A DNA stretch of 64,000 nucleotides from Peptococcaceae bacterium BRH_c8a (lineage in GTDB: Bacteria; Bacillota; Desulfotomaculia; Desulfotomaculales; Desulfallaceae). The stretch is taken from NCBI GenBank assembly GCA_000961575.1, contig LADP01000010.1, forward strand, positions 1 through 64,000, read 5' to 3'. Below are positions 2,322 through 62,129 of this stretch, piece by piece. Below the pieces are notes generated by a model. That model was not told where the DNA came from. It saw only the letters and a program-made list of their open reading frames with translations, and did no database searches. The position numbers were made by a program, and so were the translations under genes. Position 1 is the first letter of the stretch; every line of letters begins with the position of its first letter.

Positions 2322-2330
2322 TGTTATAAT
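2322..2330 (+). promoter_or_regulatory. Extended -10 promoter of the MFS exporter leader
   Basis: TG, one base, then TATAAT (2325-2330) form an extended -10 element. No clear -35 is seen. Start near 2337 would give a leader of about 315 bases before the MFS start codon at 2654. A small CCCTG/CAGGG hairpin (2441-2454) lies inside that leader. Confidence 0.4.
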
Positions 2331-2505
2331 CAATGTATTCTTACGGCTAAGAGTTACTGCGTTAAGTCAATTCAAGGAGATTAACAATGCATTCAATGTT
2401 CTTATAATTATTTACTTTTTCATACAACTGTTTAACTGCACCCTGGCGTCAGGGTTTATTTGTTATGCGGTTTGGTGAAGGTAGAGTATTTATAAGGGCA
2501 TTTTT

Positions 2506-2553
2506 ATGAACCGTGGTTTATGTTGCCTCATAAAATACGCATGTCTACTTTGA
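2506..2553 (+). CDS. Putative 15-residue leader peptide upstream of MFS exporter
   Basis: A tiny ORF reads MNRGLCCLIKYACLL, with AAGGG (2494-2498) seven bases before its ATG. It overlaps by ATGA the stop of another 14-codon ORF (2465-2509, MRFGEGRVFIRAFL). Its distal codons contain TACGC (2536-2540), complementary to GCGTA (2563-2567) that forms the 5' foot of the downstream terminator. This is the geometry expected of ribosome-controlled attenuation of drug-resistance genes. Whether the peptide is made is untested; neither ORF resembles a leader I can name. Confidence 0.4.
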   Translation: MNRGLCCLIKYACLL

Positions 2554-2562
2554 TACCATTTT

Positions 2563-2607
2563 GCGTAAACAACTACCCCAGATGTGGGTGTGGTCTACGC
2601 TTTTTTT
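2563..2607 (+). terminator. Attenuator terminator in the MFS leader
   Basis: GCGTA (2563-2567) pairs with TACGC (2596-2600) outside an imperfect ACCC/GGGT inner stem, directly followed by seven Ts (2601-2607). It lies 46 bases upstream of the MFS start, within the leader, so read-through must be conditional. Confidence 0.55.
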
Positions 2608-2653
2608 ATTGCTAATGATTGCTTATCTATATGAATGGAGAATAAGTACAGAC

Positions 2654-3862
2654 ATGAATAATTGGAAAAGGAATACCATACTCTTTTTGGCAAGTCAGAC
2701 CCTGTCACTTTTTGGCACCTCACTGGTGCAGTACGCAATTTTATGGCATATCACGTTGACCACCCAGTCGGGTGTAATGATGACCATATTCATTATCTGC
2801 GGATTTTTGCCCACCTTTTTCCTGTCTCCCTTTGCGGGGGTGTGGGCCGACCGTTATAACCGCAAACTGCTAATTATGTTCTCCGATTCCATGATCGCCC
2901 TGTCAACACTTTTTTTAGCGATTATGTTTCTTATGGGATACGATGCGTTGTGGCTGCTCTTTATGATGGCTGCCATTCGCGCTGTCGGCGCGGGAATACA
3001 AATGCCGGCGGTGGGAGCTTTTCTGCCACAAATTGTGCCGCAGGATAAGCTGACTAAAGTAAACGCCACAAACGGGAGCATCCAGGCAATGGTGATGCTG
3101 ATATCGCCCATGGTTAGCGGCGCACTACTTACCATGACCACCATTGAAACGATATTTTTTATCGATGTTGTCACCGCGGCTGTTGCGGTTTTGGTACTGC
3201 TGGTGTTTCTGCATGTGCCTGTGCACGCCAAAGCCATGGAAAAGCTAACGATCAGCTATTTTAGCGATATGCGCGAAGGCATTCTTTATATCAAGAATAA
3301 TGCCTACATTAGGCAATTCTTTTTATTCTGCGCGTTTTTCTTTTTTTTCGTTGCTCCGGCGGCCTTTCTGACGCCGCTTCAAGTGGCACGCAGTTTTGGC
3401 GGCGATGTCTGGCGATTGACAGCAATTGAAATCACCTTTTCCATTGGTATGATGGTGGGGGGGATGATTATGGCTGCCTGGGGCGGCTTTAAAAACAGAG
3501 TGCACACCATGACGCTGTCAACCCTTATTACCGGAACTTGCACCGCTGCTCTGGGTTTGGTGCCTGTTTTTTGGATCTATTTGCTTTTCATGGGTCTGAT
3601 CGGCATTGCCATGCCTTTCTTCAACACCCCCTCCACAGTTTTAATCCAAGAGAAGGTGGATGAGAATTATCTGGGCCGGGTATTTGGTGTTTTCGGGATG
3701 ATCGCAAGTGCCATGATGCCCCTGGGTATGCTGGTGTTCGGGCCGGTTTCAGACGTCATGCCAATAGAATGGCTGCTTATAGGAACCGGGCTGCTGCTTT
3801 TTATCCAGGGCTTCTTCCTGCTAGGCAGCAAAGTATTAATCGAAGCCGGAAAACCAATTTAA
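2654..3862 (+). CDS. MFS exporter of the macrolide-efflux type
   Basis: A 402-residue, roughly twelve-helix major facilitator protein resembling the Mef/MdrP-type drug:H+ antiporters. The ATG at 2654 (MNNWKRNTILFLASQTLS) is preferred. The frame extends upstream to a TTG, but that stretch is the attenuator hairpin. The loop after helix 2 has the MFS motif FAGVWADRYNRK (about residue 75), and a GRVFG stretch lies before the last helices. It is monocistronic, between its leader and a bidirectional terminator. Substrate cannot be read from sequence. The attenuator-like leader favours induction by a ribosome-targeting compound (inference). Confidence 0.85.
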   Translation: MNNWKRNTILFLASQTLSLFGTSLVQYAILWHITLTTQSGVMMTIFIICGFLPTFFLSPFAGVWADRYNRKLLIMFSDSMIALSTLFLAIMFLMGYDALWLLFMMAAIRAVGAGIQMPAVGAFLPQIVPQDKLTKVNATNGSIQAMVMLISPMVSGALLTMTTIETIFFIDVVTAAVAVLVLLVFLHVPVHAKAMEKLTISYFSDMREGILYIKNNAYIRQFFLFCAFFFFFVAPAAFLTPLQVARSFGGDVWRLTAIEITFSIGMMVGGMIMAAWGGFKNRVHTMTLSTLITGTCTAALGLVPVFWIYLLFMGLIGIAMPFFNTPSTVLIQEKVDENYLGRVFGVFGMIASAMMPLGMLVFGPVSDVMPIEWLLIGTGLLLFIQGFFLLGSKVLIEAGKPI

Positions 3863-49452: not shown

Positions 49453-51199
49453 CTATTGAAGGCGTTTCTTTTGTGCATGAAGCTCCTTTGCGGCGGCCAA
49501 AAATCTTTCATTCAGCTGTTTTTTTTCGGTGTCATCCATTTTTTCATTTAGTTTGGCGCCTAAAAAAGCCAATTCACATTCCAATCTTCTAATATTGTCT
49601 GTCAACTGCCCGTATGCAGCGCCAATATTATCTTTCACCTGTTGTTCCCTACATTTGGCCAAGTAGTAATCGTAATTACCATCATAACAGTTTAATTTTT
49701 GGTTATCGATGGTGAAAATCCGGTTGGCCACCCTTTGAATAAAATATCTGTCGTGGCAAACAAAAAAGTATAATCCCTTTAAAATCCTCAAGCACCGACT
49801 CAATTTTTTCTTTGGATTCGATATCCATGTAATTTGTCGGTTCATCTAATATAAGCATATCGGCACCTGACAATATGAGCTTGGCAAAGGCCACCCTGCC
49901 TCTTTCACCCATACTCAAGTTGGCGATGCTCTTATAAACATCATCCCCTCTAAAAAGTAAATTAGCTAGCAGCAACCTGGCTTCGGCAGCAGTAGTTCCT
50001 GCAGTCAAAACACTATCAAGAATGGTGGCACCATAAGGCAGGTTATTAAGCTCCTGGGCGAAATAACCGGTTTTAACCGCGGGGTTGATAGTCACGGTTC
50101 CCTGATAGTCTTGGTCCAAACCACAGATTGTTTTAAGCAGGGTGGTCTTGCCAACTCCGTTTGCTCCGATTAACGCGATTTTATCCCCACGCTTGATCCG
50201 AAAAGAAATACCCTGAAAGATTATATTACGGCCAAAACTTTTGCCCAGGTTTTGCCCTTGTACCAGGTACGGCGGATACTTTTTGCCCCTAATGCTTTTT
50301 TTGATCACCTCAAAGGCAGGCGAAACCGGTTTGACAGGTTTGTCAAGTTTGGCAGATTCTGTTCTCTCCAATTCTTTTCGCTTGGCCTTTAGCACATTGG
50401 CGTGTTTATTAGCCTTGGATCTGTAAAAGTCGTTTTGACCGGCTGCTTGATGAGCGCTTTGATACCAGTCTTCCCTGGTATTGATTACCTGCTTCAGATG
50501 CTGAATCTTCAGCTGCTGCTTGTTGTATTCCCTGGCCATATTCTTCAGTTCAATTTCCTTTTGCGTGCGGTAGGCCGAGTAATTGCCTTCGTACATTTTT
50601 AATCCTCGGGCGGTCAGTTCCCAAATTTTATTTACAGCCCGATCAAGAAAGAAACGGTCGTGAGATATAATTAACATGGGCTTATCCAGTTGGCCAATAA
50701 ACTCCTCCAGCCATTCGCAGCTTTTCGTATCCAGGTGGTTAGTGGGTTCATCAAGGATTAGTAAATCAAAATTAGTAACCATAATCCTGCATAGGGCCAG
50801 TTTTGTTTTTTCCCCGCCACTTAAACTTACCGCTCTTTGTGACCATATTGCCTCGTTTAAACCAATCTTGTTCAGCGATTTTTTGACTATTGTTTCGGTA
50901 TCCCTGGTTTGTTGCAGGTTCTTGGTAGGCACATTCAAAATCGCCTCGTAAACCGAAGCGTAGGAGTCAAATTGAGGGTGCTGTTCAATATAAAGAATTC
51001 TAAGGTGGGGGGGTGCATATACAATTTTGCCGGCATCGCAGCTTTCCCGGTTAGCTATCAGCCTGGCCAAAGTTGTTTTACCGATGCCGTTTAATCCAAC
51101 CAACCCTACTTTATCCCCATCGTTAATCTCCCCGCTAATATTTTTAAATACAGTTTTGCCGTGATAGCTTTTACTAAGCTCATGAAAACGGGCAGGCAT
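49453..51199 (-). pseudogene. ABC-F ribosome-protection-type ATPase, frameshifted near second SHDR motif
   Basis: The frame from ATG 51199 gives two ABC domains: first GLNGIGKTTL, SLSGGEKTK, LLILDEPTNHLD and ISHDR; linker about 215-315 (basic, coiled coil); second GANGVGKTTL, LSMGERGR, LILDEPTNYMD. After DFKGIILF the frame goes off at a run of six Ts (minus strand; 49762-49767). One base fewer restores FVCHDRYFIQRVANRIF and a charged C-terminal tail to 49453. Full length would be about 580 residues, normal for ABC-F proteins of the Msr/Lsa/Vga type that rescue ribosomes from antibiotics. The motif reads CHDR rather than SHDR. The cause may be true mutation, slippage or a homopolymer sequencing error. 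An attenuator-like leader precedes it. Confidence 0.8.
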
Positions 51200-51245
51200 A
51201 GAATCATCTCCCTTGTCCTGTTTTTAAACCGCAAGAGATGATAGT

Positions 51246-51290
51246 AAAAAAAACAAAACTGCAGTAAACACCCGGGTGTTAAACTGCAGT
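51246..51290 (-). terminator. Attenuator terminator in the ABC-F leader
   Basis: CTGCAGT-AACACCC and GGGTGTT-ACTGCAG (51274-51289, 51259-51273) form a stem of about 14 pairs followed on the minus strand by TTTTGTTTTTTTT. It lies between the eight-codon ORF and the ABC-F start. Confidence 0.75.
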
Positions 51291-51346
51291 GGCGTATAAA
51301 TAAGCGTTATAGCCTCAAAATTTAATTATTTTCCTGGCCGTGTTTT

Positions 51347-51373
51347 TTAACTATCATCTCTTAAAGAAGGCAT
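51347..51373 (-). CDS. Eight-residue leader peptide ORF of the ABC-F gene
   Basis: ATG at 51373, TCAGGAG just upstream (four-base spacing), eight codons MPSLRDDS, then TAA. Its codons 5-8 are exactly the segment that pairs with 51233-51245. A ribosome paused on this ORF would therefore change the fold of the downstream RNA. No experimental support; the assignment rests on the geometry. Confidence 0.5.
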   Translation of the reverse strand: MPSLRDDS

Positions 51374-51495
51374 ACTACTCCTGATAGCAGATGCCTTGAT
51401 TAAGAAGAATATTTAATTTGTTTAGTTAAAAAACACTTGCTTCATTTTGCACCTCGTAATTAATTTTCAAATTTATGCTAACATACTTGAAGCTA

Positions 51496-51597
51496 GGAAG
51501 CAAGGTGGTAGGAAGCAAGGGGACGGTTCTTTTGCTTCCTGTTTTTAGGGGTGGGAAGCAAAAGAACCGTCCCCTTGCTTCCTACCACCTTGCTTCC
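51496..51597. repeat. Perfect 44-bp inverted repeat built from GGAAGCAAGG units
   Basis: Arms 51496-51539 and 51554-51597 are exact complements with a 14-base loop. Each arm contains GGAAGCAAGG twice and a CGGTTCTTTTGCTTCC end. It ends four bases before the rhodanese stop codon and could terminate that gene. Related GGAAGCAAGGG units recur at 52037-52061. Confidence 0.95.
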
Positions 51598-51601
51598 CCA
51601 C

Positions 51602-52027
51602 CTACCCCGCTGGTTGCACCTTCTCATATGGCCAGGCTACAATGCCGCCCTTTAGGTTATAAACGTTATTAAATCCCTTGCCTGTAAGGAACCCCGCTGC
51701 GTCGGCGCTTCTCCGTCCGGTACGGCAGTATATAATTAGCTTTCCGGTTTGGGGTAGAGTACTAAAATCCTGCTTTAGCTTGCTTACCGGTATGTTGACT
51801 GCCCCGGGAATAAAACCTGTTTCCAGTAGTTCTTCAGGCTCTCGTACATCTACCAGGAAGTAATCCTTTTCCTCTTGGAGTATCGCTATTAGCTCATCGG
51901 CGCTGATATTTTGATACACCGGAGCGGCTTCTCCGCCACAGCCCGCCAAAACCGAAAAAGCTACCATTACCAGTAATAATGAGAGGCATATTCGTTTCAC
52001 TGCGCTTTGAGTTACATAACCTTTCAT
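51602..52027 (-). CDS. Rhodanese-domain lipoprotein
   Basis: A 141-residue exported sulfurtransferase-like protein. The lipoprotein signal (residues 1-30) ends with VLAGC. The rhodanese domain contains FLVDVREPEELLETGFIPGA and the active-site loop YCRTGRRS with the catalytic cysteine. ATG 52027 is chosen because it starts the signal peptide and follows AAGGGGGG; the frame continues 12 codons upstream through the GGAAGCAAGG repeat. It may handle persulfide or thiosulfate at the membrane surface. Confidence 0.88.
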   Translation of the reverse strand: MKGYVTQSAVKRICLSLLLVMVAFSVLAGCGGEAAPVYQNISADELIAILQEEKDYFLVDVREPEELLETGFIPGAVNIPVSKLKQDFSTLPQTGKLIIYCRTGRRSADAAGFLTGKGFNNVYNLKGGIVAWPYEKVQPAG

Positions 52028-55555: not shown

Positions 55556-56674
55556 TTAATCAATTAGTAGCAGTACAACAATCAGTGAACCTACGGCTTT
55601 TAATAGCCCGGCAGCTGAGCCCACTATCAGCGGTTTGCCGCCGGCTTTCTTCATTTCCGCAAAGGAAATTTGCAGACCCAGACCGGTTAAGCCAATGGCA
55701 AAGAACCAGCCGTACAACAACCGGAACATTTTCAGTTCTGCCGATGCGGGGTCAATGGAGCCAAAGGCACCGAAAGAGGTAAGCGTAACGGTGGCCAGAA
55801 AGCCAAGCACAAATAACGGGAACTTGGACATAAAGGAACCGGTTGTCGCGGCTGCTTCCTGGTTTTCGGACTCATTGCACATCCTGGTGTAGAGCAGCGC
55901 AATAACCATTACCACCAGGGGTAAAAATATAACCCTGGTCAGGTTGAATACTTCGCCGACCTTAAGGCTGATGGAAGGGTTGTCCACCGTCCCCGGGTCG
56001 AAAGCCAGGGCGGCCGCTAGAACTTGGCCGGAATTCAAAATGCCGGTACCGGCCCAGGCGCCGAACTGTTCACTGGAAAGGCCCATCAAGTGTCCCAGAA
56101 ATGGGAAAGTGAACATACACACCAAACCGAAAGACAGGATAGTGGCTATTGAGTAAGCGATATCCTCACCTTTACCACGCACTGCCGGGGCAACGGCCAC
56201 GATAGCGGAAACGCCGCACACACCCACACCGGCCGCCAGGCAGGCCGCTGAAGAAGTTGGCATATTCATCTTTTTGCCGAACCACATGGTGAAAATAATG
56301 GTACCGAAAACAAAGGCCAGAATCAGAACTACTGATGTGGCTCCCAGCGTAGCCAACTCGGCCAGGCTGTAGAGTGTACCCAGCAGAATAACACCCATTT
56401 TAATAAATAGCCGGGAGGTTTTTACCCCGTCCAGGGCCCAGGATGGGATGCCAATGGTGTTTCTAATGACCATCCCGATAACGATGACCAAAATTACATA
56501 ATTAATTTTTAATACTTTGCCTAGAAAGTCGGAATTAGCCTTGAGCACTCCTTCCAGGCCGATCCACTGGGGCAAGCCCAGATCCTTCGTGCCCATGGAC
56601 AAGGCCGCGATGAAAAACATCAGTAATAGTCCGGGTATCACTTTCCATAATTTTGAGGCGTAGCTATCTGTCAT
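55556..56674 (-). CDS. YeiH-family putative sulfate/anion exporter 1
   Basis: A 372-residue membrane protein with about ten to eleven helices of the YeiH/UPF0324 (PSE) family. Signature segments: GLPQWIGLEGVL, FIKMGVILLGTLYS, AAGVGVCGVSAIVAVAPAVR and GTGILNSGQVLAAALAFDPG. It is 45 percent or so identical by eye to exporter 2 (60972-62129). Family members are proposed to export sulfate or sulfonates. It is first in an operon with the 44-residue and Usp proteins, divergent from the kinase gene. Confidence 0.9.
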   Translation of the reverse strand: MTDSYASKLWKVIPGLLLMFFIAALSMGTKDLGLPQWIGLEGVLKANSDFLGKVLKINYVILVIVIGMVIRNTIGIPSWALDGVKTSRLFIKMGVILLGTLYSLAELATLGATSVVLILAFVFGTIIFTMWFGKKMNMPTSSAACLAAGVGVCGVSAIVAVAPAVRGKGEDIAYSIATILSFGLVCMFTFPFLGHLMGLSSEQFGAWAGTGILNSGQVLAAALAFDPGTVDNPSISLKVGEVFNLTRVIFLPLVVMVIALLYTRMCNESENQEAAATTGSFMSKFPLFVLGFLATVTLTSFGAFGSIDPASAELKMFRLLYGWFFAIGLTGLGLQISFAEMKKAGGKPLIVGSAAGLLKAVGSLIVVLLLID

Positions 56675-60971: not shown

Positions 60972-62129
60972 TCACGGGTGTTCGGCAATCAACAGTAGCA
61001 CCACCAGCAAAGCTCCCACCAGCTTAACCGTGGCTGCTGTTATACCCACCAACAGGTGACTGCCCCCCGCCCGGCGCAGTTCCTCAAAGGAAATTTGCAT
61101 GCCCAAGCCCGCCAGTCCGATGGCAAAAAACCAACTGTACAGGCGTCTAATAAATACCAGTTCGGGGGATGGCGGTGTAGTTTCCCCCAGCATACCGAAA
61201 GAGGTCATGAACACTACGAACAAAAAACCAACTACAAAAAGAGGAAAGTTTGTTCCCAGTTTGGTGTTGATGCCAAAACCATCACCATCACCATCACCAT
61301 CACCTTTGCCGGAACGGCTGCAATAAACAGCCAGGAACAGAACCACAAAAGGCAGAAATAGAATTCTGGTCAGGTTGTATATTTCACCCGTCTTCAAACT
61401 AGCCGAGGCATGTTCGGCGGTGCCGGGGTCGAAGCTCAACGCAGCGGCCAGCACCTGGCCGGAATTAAGTATCCCGGTACCTACCCAGACACCGAATTGG
61501 TGCGGGCTTAAACCCAATAAAGTGCCTATGGCGGGTAGCATAAACAGGTAGAACAGGCCCACACCGAGAATAGTGGCAATAGAATAGGCAACATCGGTGG
61601 ACTTTGCGCGCACCGCTGGTGCAACCGCAACGATGGCTGACACACCGCAGATTGCAGTACCGGCCGCCAGCACCGACGCGGCAGCCGGATCTAGCCCCAG
61701 CCTTTGCCCCAGATATAGGGTTAAAGTTAGGGTGAAAATAACAAAAGCCAGAATTATTACAAAGGCAGTGGAACCTAGGTTGGCCAGGTCTCTGAAGCTG
61801 TACAGCGAGCCCAGCAAAATAACGCCCAGCTTGATAAATAAGCGGGAAGTCCTGGTGATGCCCGGGGCAAGCAGGGGGGGGATGCCGATTAAGTTGCGCA
61901 GCAGTATCCCGGTGATAATACAGATAAGTACATAATTAAGGTGCAAAATATTAACCAGGTATCTGGCCGTAACCGGCCTTGCTGCCAGTATTGATTCCAA
62001 ACCTTGCCACTGAGGGAAACCCAGATCCGCTCCGCCCCTGGCAACCACAGCTACCGCAACCATGGTTAAAATGCCCGGCAGCAGATGAATTAAATACAGC
62101 AGTGTCTTAATTTTCGACACACCCCGCAT
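60972..62129 (-). CDS. YeiH-family putative sulfate/anion exporter 2
   Basis: A 385-residue paralogue of exporter 1: GFPQWQGLESIL, FIKLGVILLGSLYS, AAGTAICGVSAIVAVAPAVR, GTGILNSGQVLAAALSFDPG. One cytoplasmic or periplasmic loop carries a GDGDGDGDG tract encoded by a hexanucleotide repeat (61279-61304) that exporter 1 lacks. The start is placed at ATG 62129, with no good ribosome site; a GTG three codons later is possible. It is followed by the 37-residue gene. Confidence 0.9.
   Translation of the reverse strand: MRGVSKIKTLLYLIHLLPGILTMVAVAVVARGGADLGFPQWQGLESILAARPVTARYLVNILHLNYVLICIITGILLRNLIGIPPLLAPGITRTSRLFIKLGVILLGSLYSFRDLANLGSTAFVIILAFVIFTLTLTLYLGQRLGLDPAAASVLAAGTAICGVSAIVAVAPAVRAKSTDVAYSIATILGVGLFYLFMLPAIGTLLGLSPHQFGVWVGTGILNSGQVLAAALSFDPGTAEHASASLKTGEIYNLTRILFLPFVVLFLAVYCSRSGKGDGDGDGDGFGINTKLGTNFPLFVVGFLFVVFMTSFGMLGETTPPSPELVFIRRLYSWFFAIGLAGLGMQISFEELRRAGGSHLLVGITAATVKLVGALLVVLLLIAEHP
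61279..61304. repeat. Hexanucleotide tandem repeat inside exporter 2
   Basis: Four copies of CCATCA on the plus strand (GGTGAT sense) encode Gly-Asp repeats. Copy-number change would keep the reading frame. Confidence 0.85.

Follow-up and report, generated by a model that had tools for sequence, protein, structure and literature searches.

The stretch of DNA analysed here (the window) comprises the first 64,000 nucleotides of contig LADP01000010.1 from Peptococcaceae bacterium BRH_c8a. Near its start, an intergenic region lies between a gene ending at 2108, which from its appearance we take to encode glutamine synthetase, and the ATG (2654) of an exporter gene on the + strand (2654-3862; 402 aa; Pfam MFS_1). 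The exporter matches the HMMs for TIGR00900 (H+ antiporter family), Mef(A) and Mef(B), with every score below the curated cut-off (198 bits versus a curated 675 for Mef(A) and 234 versus 319.6 for TIGR00900). It is about 31% identical to Mef(A) from streptococcal plasmids. By sequence it is Mef-like only, as the curated NCBIfam score for the Mef(A)/(B)/(C) macrolide exporters is not reached.

An extended -10 element, TGTTATAAT, with a weak -35, lies at 2322-2330 on the + strand. Transcription of the leader would start near 2337, so that the leader measures about 317 nt up to the ATG. When folded, the 318-nt leader was more stable than 100 of 100 shuffles. An arm, UGCGUUAA (2358-2365), can form 8 pairs, with one bulge, with 2432-2440. 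It is followed by AAGGAG (2374-2379), the best ribosome site within the leader, which serves a six-codon ORF (2387-2407; ATG CAT TCA ATG TTC TTA TAA) encoding MHSMFL and ending in UAA. The 3' part of this ORF (segment A, 2397-2407) is predicted to form 11 pairs with segment B, UUAUAAGGGCA (2490-2500), as an anti-antiterminator. Hairpin T1 (2440-2455; ACCCTG/CAGGGT; -8.4 kcal/mol in isolation) begins 33 nt past the ORF stop, and TTATTT (2456-2461), immediately 3' of it, matches the NusG pause motif TTNTTT. The original prediction overlooked AAGGAG, its six-codon ORF and T1. Terminator T2 (2563-2607) begins 156 nt past the stop and consists of a stem GCGTA...TACGC (2563-2600) and seven Ts (2601-2607). 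Its isolated fold has an energy of -15.3 kcal/mol (z -2.8), a stability equalled in 1 of 200 shuffles. The exporter gene has its own ribosome site, GGAG (2637-2640), around which a weak 5-pair stem (CUUAU/AUAAG) was noted by eye. No Rfam family reached its gathering score anywhere in the window.

Among 113 genomes of the order, the leader DNA occurred only in the window and in one genome of the same genus, the MAG Desulfotomaculum sp. BL5_bin.2 (locus L037, hereafter the sister), whose pump is 92% identical to that of the window. A sequence-only profile searched against 113 genomes of the class gave convincing matches only to these two; the next four matches (E 0.0015-0.0098) were inspected and rejected for their unrelated contexts. 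Plasmids gave no match to the leader DNA, and the leader pattern was not found in viral contigs. In the alignment of the two leaders, the sister's six-codon ORF, MYSLFL, has 19 of 21 bases as in the window, the SD is kept, and so are T1 and T2 (stem and T-run). Both amino acid changes are conservative; at position 2 the sister has the Tyr of MsrDL (MYLIFM), the leader peptide that controls the ABC-F gene msrD and is described as stalling with erythromycin or azithromycin while UAA is in the A site (PMC10314930). Upstream of its leader the sister has TTGACC-17-TACTAT, at a position that differs from that of the extended -10 in the window. Covariation at homologous loci had been proposed as a check by the original prediction. 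A:B is without covariation because the searched sets contain only two sequences of the MHSMFL-type leader, and the pairing 2358-2365/2432-2440 has one two-sided change in the sister, which with two sequences counts as a single event.

Our folding models predict that the strongest pairing common to window and sister joins 2397-2407 with 2490-2500. Blocking the six-codon ORF, to simulate a stalled ribosome, was predicted to abolish A:B (0.98 to 0 in the window, 0.65 to 0 in the sister), to leave T1 at 0.05 (sister 0.06) instead of 1.0 and to lower P(T2), over all pairs, from 0.76 to 0.04 in the window and from 0.47 to 0.01 in the sister, two results that are not independent because the leaders are about 90% identical. 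The left arm of T1 would then pair with the right half of T2 (0.77 in the window, 0.69 in the sister). Linker shuffles produced a drop in P(T2) of at least 0.5 in only 5 of 200 and 7 of 200 cases, the sister's own drop being 0.46. A control block further downstream left the base of T2 and A:B nearly unchanged in the model; T1, itself covered, was prevented. In an RNA that ends at T1, equilibrium folding predicted T1 to form with or without the ORF block.

From the sequence, the folding models and the likeness to known leaders, we consider it likely that 2322-2653 is a ribosome-stalling transcription attenuator of the Mef-like exporter. On the same grounds we infer translation of the ORF, stalling, the drug, pausing and the function of the pump. 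In this model, transcription would begin near 2337, and ribosomes would bind at AAGGAG to translate MHSMFL. When no drug is present, the ribosome would complete the peptide and depart, 2397-2407 would pair with 2490-2500 so that T1 is enclosed, and T2 would stop transcription short of the pump gene. With a drug bound in the tunnel, most likely a macrolide, the ribosome would stall close to the UAA that ends the six-codon ORF, much as it does on MsrDL, covering 2387 to about 2420. Segment B (2490-2500), now free, would pair downstream. T1 would give its left arm to the right arm of T2, which would keep T2 from forming and allow transcription of the pump. T1 with TTATTT probably holds RNA polymerase until the ribosome arrives. 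We read it as a pause hairpin because TTNTTT stands directly 3' of T1 in eight of nine leaders of the same layout and because the order of parts matches that of the vmlR leader. T1 is thus probably a pause hairpin and possibly a weak terminator; if it is a strong terminator, the attenuator model fails.

We profiled the regions upstream of orthologous pumps for leader peptides. The count covered 24 regions, namely 21 places with a pump identity of at least 68% plus three further loci; it omits two duplicates (L036, whose upstream region equals that of L047 by eye, and L037, on the same contig as L003) and seven places with 44-48% pump identity. An SD-led ORF of the form M-x-x-hydrophobic-F-hydrophobic-(N) was found in 3 of the 24 regions (window, sister and G038, with MKKVFLN) against a shuffle expectation of 0.007, for a motif that was partly derived from the sequences in which it was counted. 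Leaders of the RLR/RFR type were present in 5 of the 24 (G010, G044, G015, Bacillus sp. 7884-1 with MTASMRLRFPALNC and Neobacillus niacini with MTASIRLRFPALNF; shuffle expectation 0.1). Shuffles were mononucleotide, and one region was 420 rather than 480 nt long. The other 16 regions had neither leader type within the stretch read. RLR leaders are described as a signature of macrolide sensing (PMC4335068, PMC6310831), and their presence before orthologs supports a macrolide role of the pump family.

Leaders of a related kind precede ABC-F genes. The window itself encodes an ABC-F protein of ribosomal-protection-like type on the - strand (49706-51199), and the region 49706-51490 holds this gene with an attenuator: a leader ORF MKQVFFN, a 14-pair pairing of the ORF end and a terminator, ACTGCAGT...ACTGCAGT, with a T-run. 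A distal arm, ACTATCATCTCTT, can pair either with the segment beside B or with the gene's own ribosome site, GGAGATGAT. Just upstream of this leader, at 51480-51620, lies a long inverted repeat around GGAAGCAAGGGGACGGTTCTTTTGCTTCC. Leaders of the pattern MK/MR-x-VF-(L/F)-N-stop, with the same layout, are found upstream of ABC-F genes and, in one case, of an orthologous pump. In 398 genomes the heptapeptide pattern was matched in three (the window ABC-F leader, that of its G033 ortholog and the G038 pump leader), and the backward pattern gave 0 hits. The original prediction described the exporter leader as a second candidate ribosome-sensing leader in the window, on an unrelated exporter class. 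The other leader that we found, that of the ABC-F gene, has the same layout as the exporter leader and is not unrelated to it in mechanism. The heptapeptides, MK(K/Q/R)VF(L/F)N and MRKVFFN, resemble the window exporter leader in being short ORFs that end in F-hydrophobic, with an ORF end that pairs about 75-90 nt downstream, an enclosed hairpin with TTNTTT and a terminator before the gene. They have no clear sequence similarity to the MHSMFL leader beyond the peptide, and their ABC-F versions have an extra arm able to hide the gene's ribosome site.

When seven heptapeptide leaders were aligned, every one of them had its ORF end paired with the downstream segment at all 14 positions, whereas slid controls, with two helices counted, were 30-50% paired. 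One position has a two-sided change, common to three sequences. Blocking the ORF in six of these leaders was predicted to remove A:B in all six, but T2 still formed in five, which counts against the switch model. In the pump leader of G078, codon 3 is a stop and no TTNTTT follows T1, suggesting that this leader has decayed. In the locus L086/L049 (G075:C1:522198-525176), an ortholog of the ABC-F gene, with leader MKRVFLN, is followed directly by an ortholog of the window pump, an operon that resembles mef(A)/msr(D) with the gene order inverted.

Another leader type, with longer ORFs, was seen by eye at two MFS genes with 44% identity (L013, L015) and at ABC-F genes (L087-L090). The leader ORF of L015 reads, for example, MLVFAGM...MIPV...YRDK, and that of L013 is similar. 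A GGCACATCTTTATT block and a terminator are common to leaders of one MFS gene and of the ABC-F genes (L013/L015 and L087-L090), hinting at a second exchanged cassette. Elsewhere in the window, two genes of PF03601 (Cons_hypoth698) lie a few kilobases apart on the - strand (55559-56674 and 60975-62129).

Other readings of the exporter leader differ in where they place the sensor and the start of transcription. The original prediction placed the sensor in two overlapping ORFs (2465-2553), with pairing of the terminator foot GCGTA to TACGC as the switch. The parts it named are there: ORF1 (14 codons, 2465-2509) and ORF2 (15 codons, 2506-2553) are joined by ATGA, ORF2 has a good ribosome site (AAGGG 7 nt upstream of its start) and a stop 10 nt from the terminator, TACGC lies inside it at 2536-2540, and the terminator has the seven Ts and the GCGTA foot. 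A scan of the + strand at 2570-2660 gave no promoter-like site, so the first ground on which that prediction would fall, a promoter between 2607 and 2654, does not apply. The second, a lack of conservation, does apply to its own ORFs: in the sister, ORF1 is cut short at 9 codons and differs at three amino acids up to there, the start of ORF2 reads AGG and TACGC is TACGG. Ribosomes modelled as stalled in ORF1 or ORF2 gave a P(T2) of 0.63 to 0.92, against 0.76 in the free leader. We regard it as highly improbable that these ORFs and this pairing are the sensor and the switch. The broader claim, that an MFS drug exporter is preceded by a ribosome-sensing attenuator, has good support; since ORF1, ORF2 and TACGC are not conserved, any sensor would have to be the six-codon ORF upstream of them. 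The main rival reading starts from a promoter-like site that overlaps this ORF, TTAACA-16-TATAAT (2381-2408, + strand), with 11 of 12 matches. Of the shuffled regions, 1.0% contain at least one such site, and the sister's counterpart, TTTACA-16-TATAAT, also reaches 11 of 12. If this were the real promoter with starts near 2415, the ORF would be coincidental and T2 a plain constitutive attenuator or one that answers to another signal. We find this distinctly unlikely. It leaves the SD and an ORF with a conserved stop unexplained, window and sister each have other promoter-like elements further upstream, the complementary arm with the two-sided change sits upstream of the site, and in the heptapeptide relatives with the same layout no TATAAT is seen by eye where the ORF ends. 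It may also be that both promoters are active.

It is unlikely that T1 is the main terminator, with the ribosome acting on it directly as in msrD and T2 as a backup. Its energy does resemble that of the msrD terminator, given as -7.9 kcal/mol in the account of how the MsrDL stall lets polymerase pass (PMC10314930) and also -7.9 when we folded the plasmid record by the method used for T1, and its tail is T-rich. T1 starts, however, outside the reach of a stalled ribosome, and no upstream competitor reduces it in the model. A somewhat unlikely variant keeps the same attenuator and changes the trigger to a lincosamide, a pleuromutilin, a phenicol, several classes or a general slow-down of translation. 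Very short ABC-F uORFs are described as often responding to non-macrolide drugs (PMC10201436, PMC9226507), and position 3 is Ser where MsrDL requires Leu. Against this, the pump is Mef-like, RLR leaders, with their macrolide signature, precede its orthologs in other genera, and the peptide end F-L-UAA is close to MsrDL.

To our knowledge, few ribosome-arrest peptides are known in detail. MsrDL is unusual among them because its stalling occurs at the stop codon. Relatives that have an altered residue 3, control a different type of resistance gene and come from environmental anaerobes would reveal which residues matter and would also show how resistance genes exchange sensors; the predictions can be tested on a 21-nt ORF. 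We tentatively suggest that peptides of the form M-x-x-hydrophobic-Phe-hydrophobic-(Asn)-stop could be a second class of antibiotic-stalling leader beside RLR, which would exert its effect at the stop codon or beside it and move as cassettes between ABC-F and Mef-like pump genes in anaerobic Bacillota, one pump having different sensors in different genera.

Among known systems, the RLR leaders of the Mega elements, Mef(E)L/MefAL (MTASMRLR; PMC4335068), are described as 327 nt long, similar to the length here, and likewise combine a Mef-type pump with a terminator. The group also includes ErmDL and hflXr rli80 (PMC6310831). In contrast to the MefL/ErmDL leaders, MHSMFL lacks the R/K-x-R/K motif. 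The Mega mef leader has a weak collinear similarity to the attenuator part, for which 1-8 of 1000 shuffles were equally good for the window, depending on scoring, and 13-98 of 1000 for the sister; homology is only suggestive, because this was the best among 10 targets tried for the window (sister excluded). The vmlR leader of Bacillus subtilis is described as having a uORF within an anti-antiterminator, a hairpin with TTNTTT and an intrinsic terminator, with an antiterminator predicted on stalling (PMC9226507). The window leader resembles it in the uORF inside a predicted anti-antiterminator pairing (A:B, as modelled in both window and sister), in the hairpin followed by TTNTTT and in the predicted loss of the terminator when the uORF is occupied. 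The tripeptide uORF, lincosamide sensing and ABC-F target belong to vmlR, which is also reported to hide the ribosome site of its gene (PMC9226507).

We compared the leader most closely with MsrDL. A pattern built to cover both MsrDL and the window ORF was matched five times across 398 genomes of the phylum. One match is the window itself, one the true msrD (MYLIFM) and one an msrD-like ABC-F gene (MYYIFI); the remaining two fall within unrelated reading frames. Run backward as a control, the pattern was matched six times, so support comes from context and not from counts, which show no enrichment. The msrD-like gene (L044, G048:C1:2823641) has the leader MYYIFI and an msrD-like terminator, with no mef directly before it. 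None of the peptides MKKVFFN, MKKVFLN, MHSMFL, MYSLFL, MYYIFI and MKQVFFN was found in the open-access papers searched. Induction through MsrDL is reported to need Leu3, as Ala there abolishes it (PMC10314930), and residues N-3 and N-2 are described as closest to erythromycin (PMC12121999); these are Ser/Met here and Ser/Leu in the sister, and one of the two drug-near residues is therefore unlike MsrDL. Ser3 is common to window and sister, the controlled gene is an MFS exporter and not an ABC-F gene, T1 and T2 are too distant for the direct cover that the MsrDL ribosome gives to the first half of its terminator, and the window leader has the additional A:B pairing and pause-like hairpin. Since Leu3, direct terminator cover and the ABC-F target are not found, we do not file the leader as a member of MsrDL. 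It shares with MsrDL the six-codon ORF, strong SD, UAA stop, downstream terminator and a gene of macrolide-resistance type, as well as a hydrophobic position 4, Phe5 and a hydrophobic position 6 (M-F-L in the window, L-F-L in the sister). Attenuator switches of this kind are already known, and an MHSMFL-type peptide on a Mef-like pump appears to be new. By analogy, the MHSMFL leader may well work like MsrDL.
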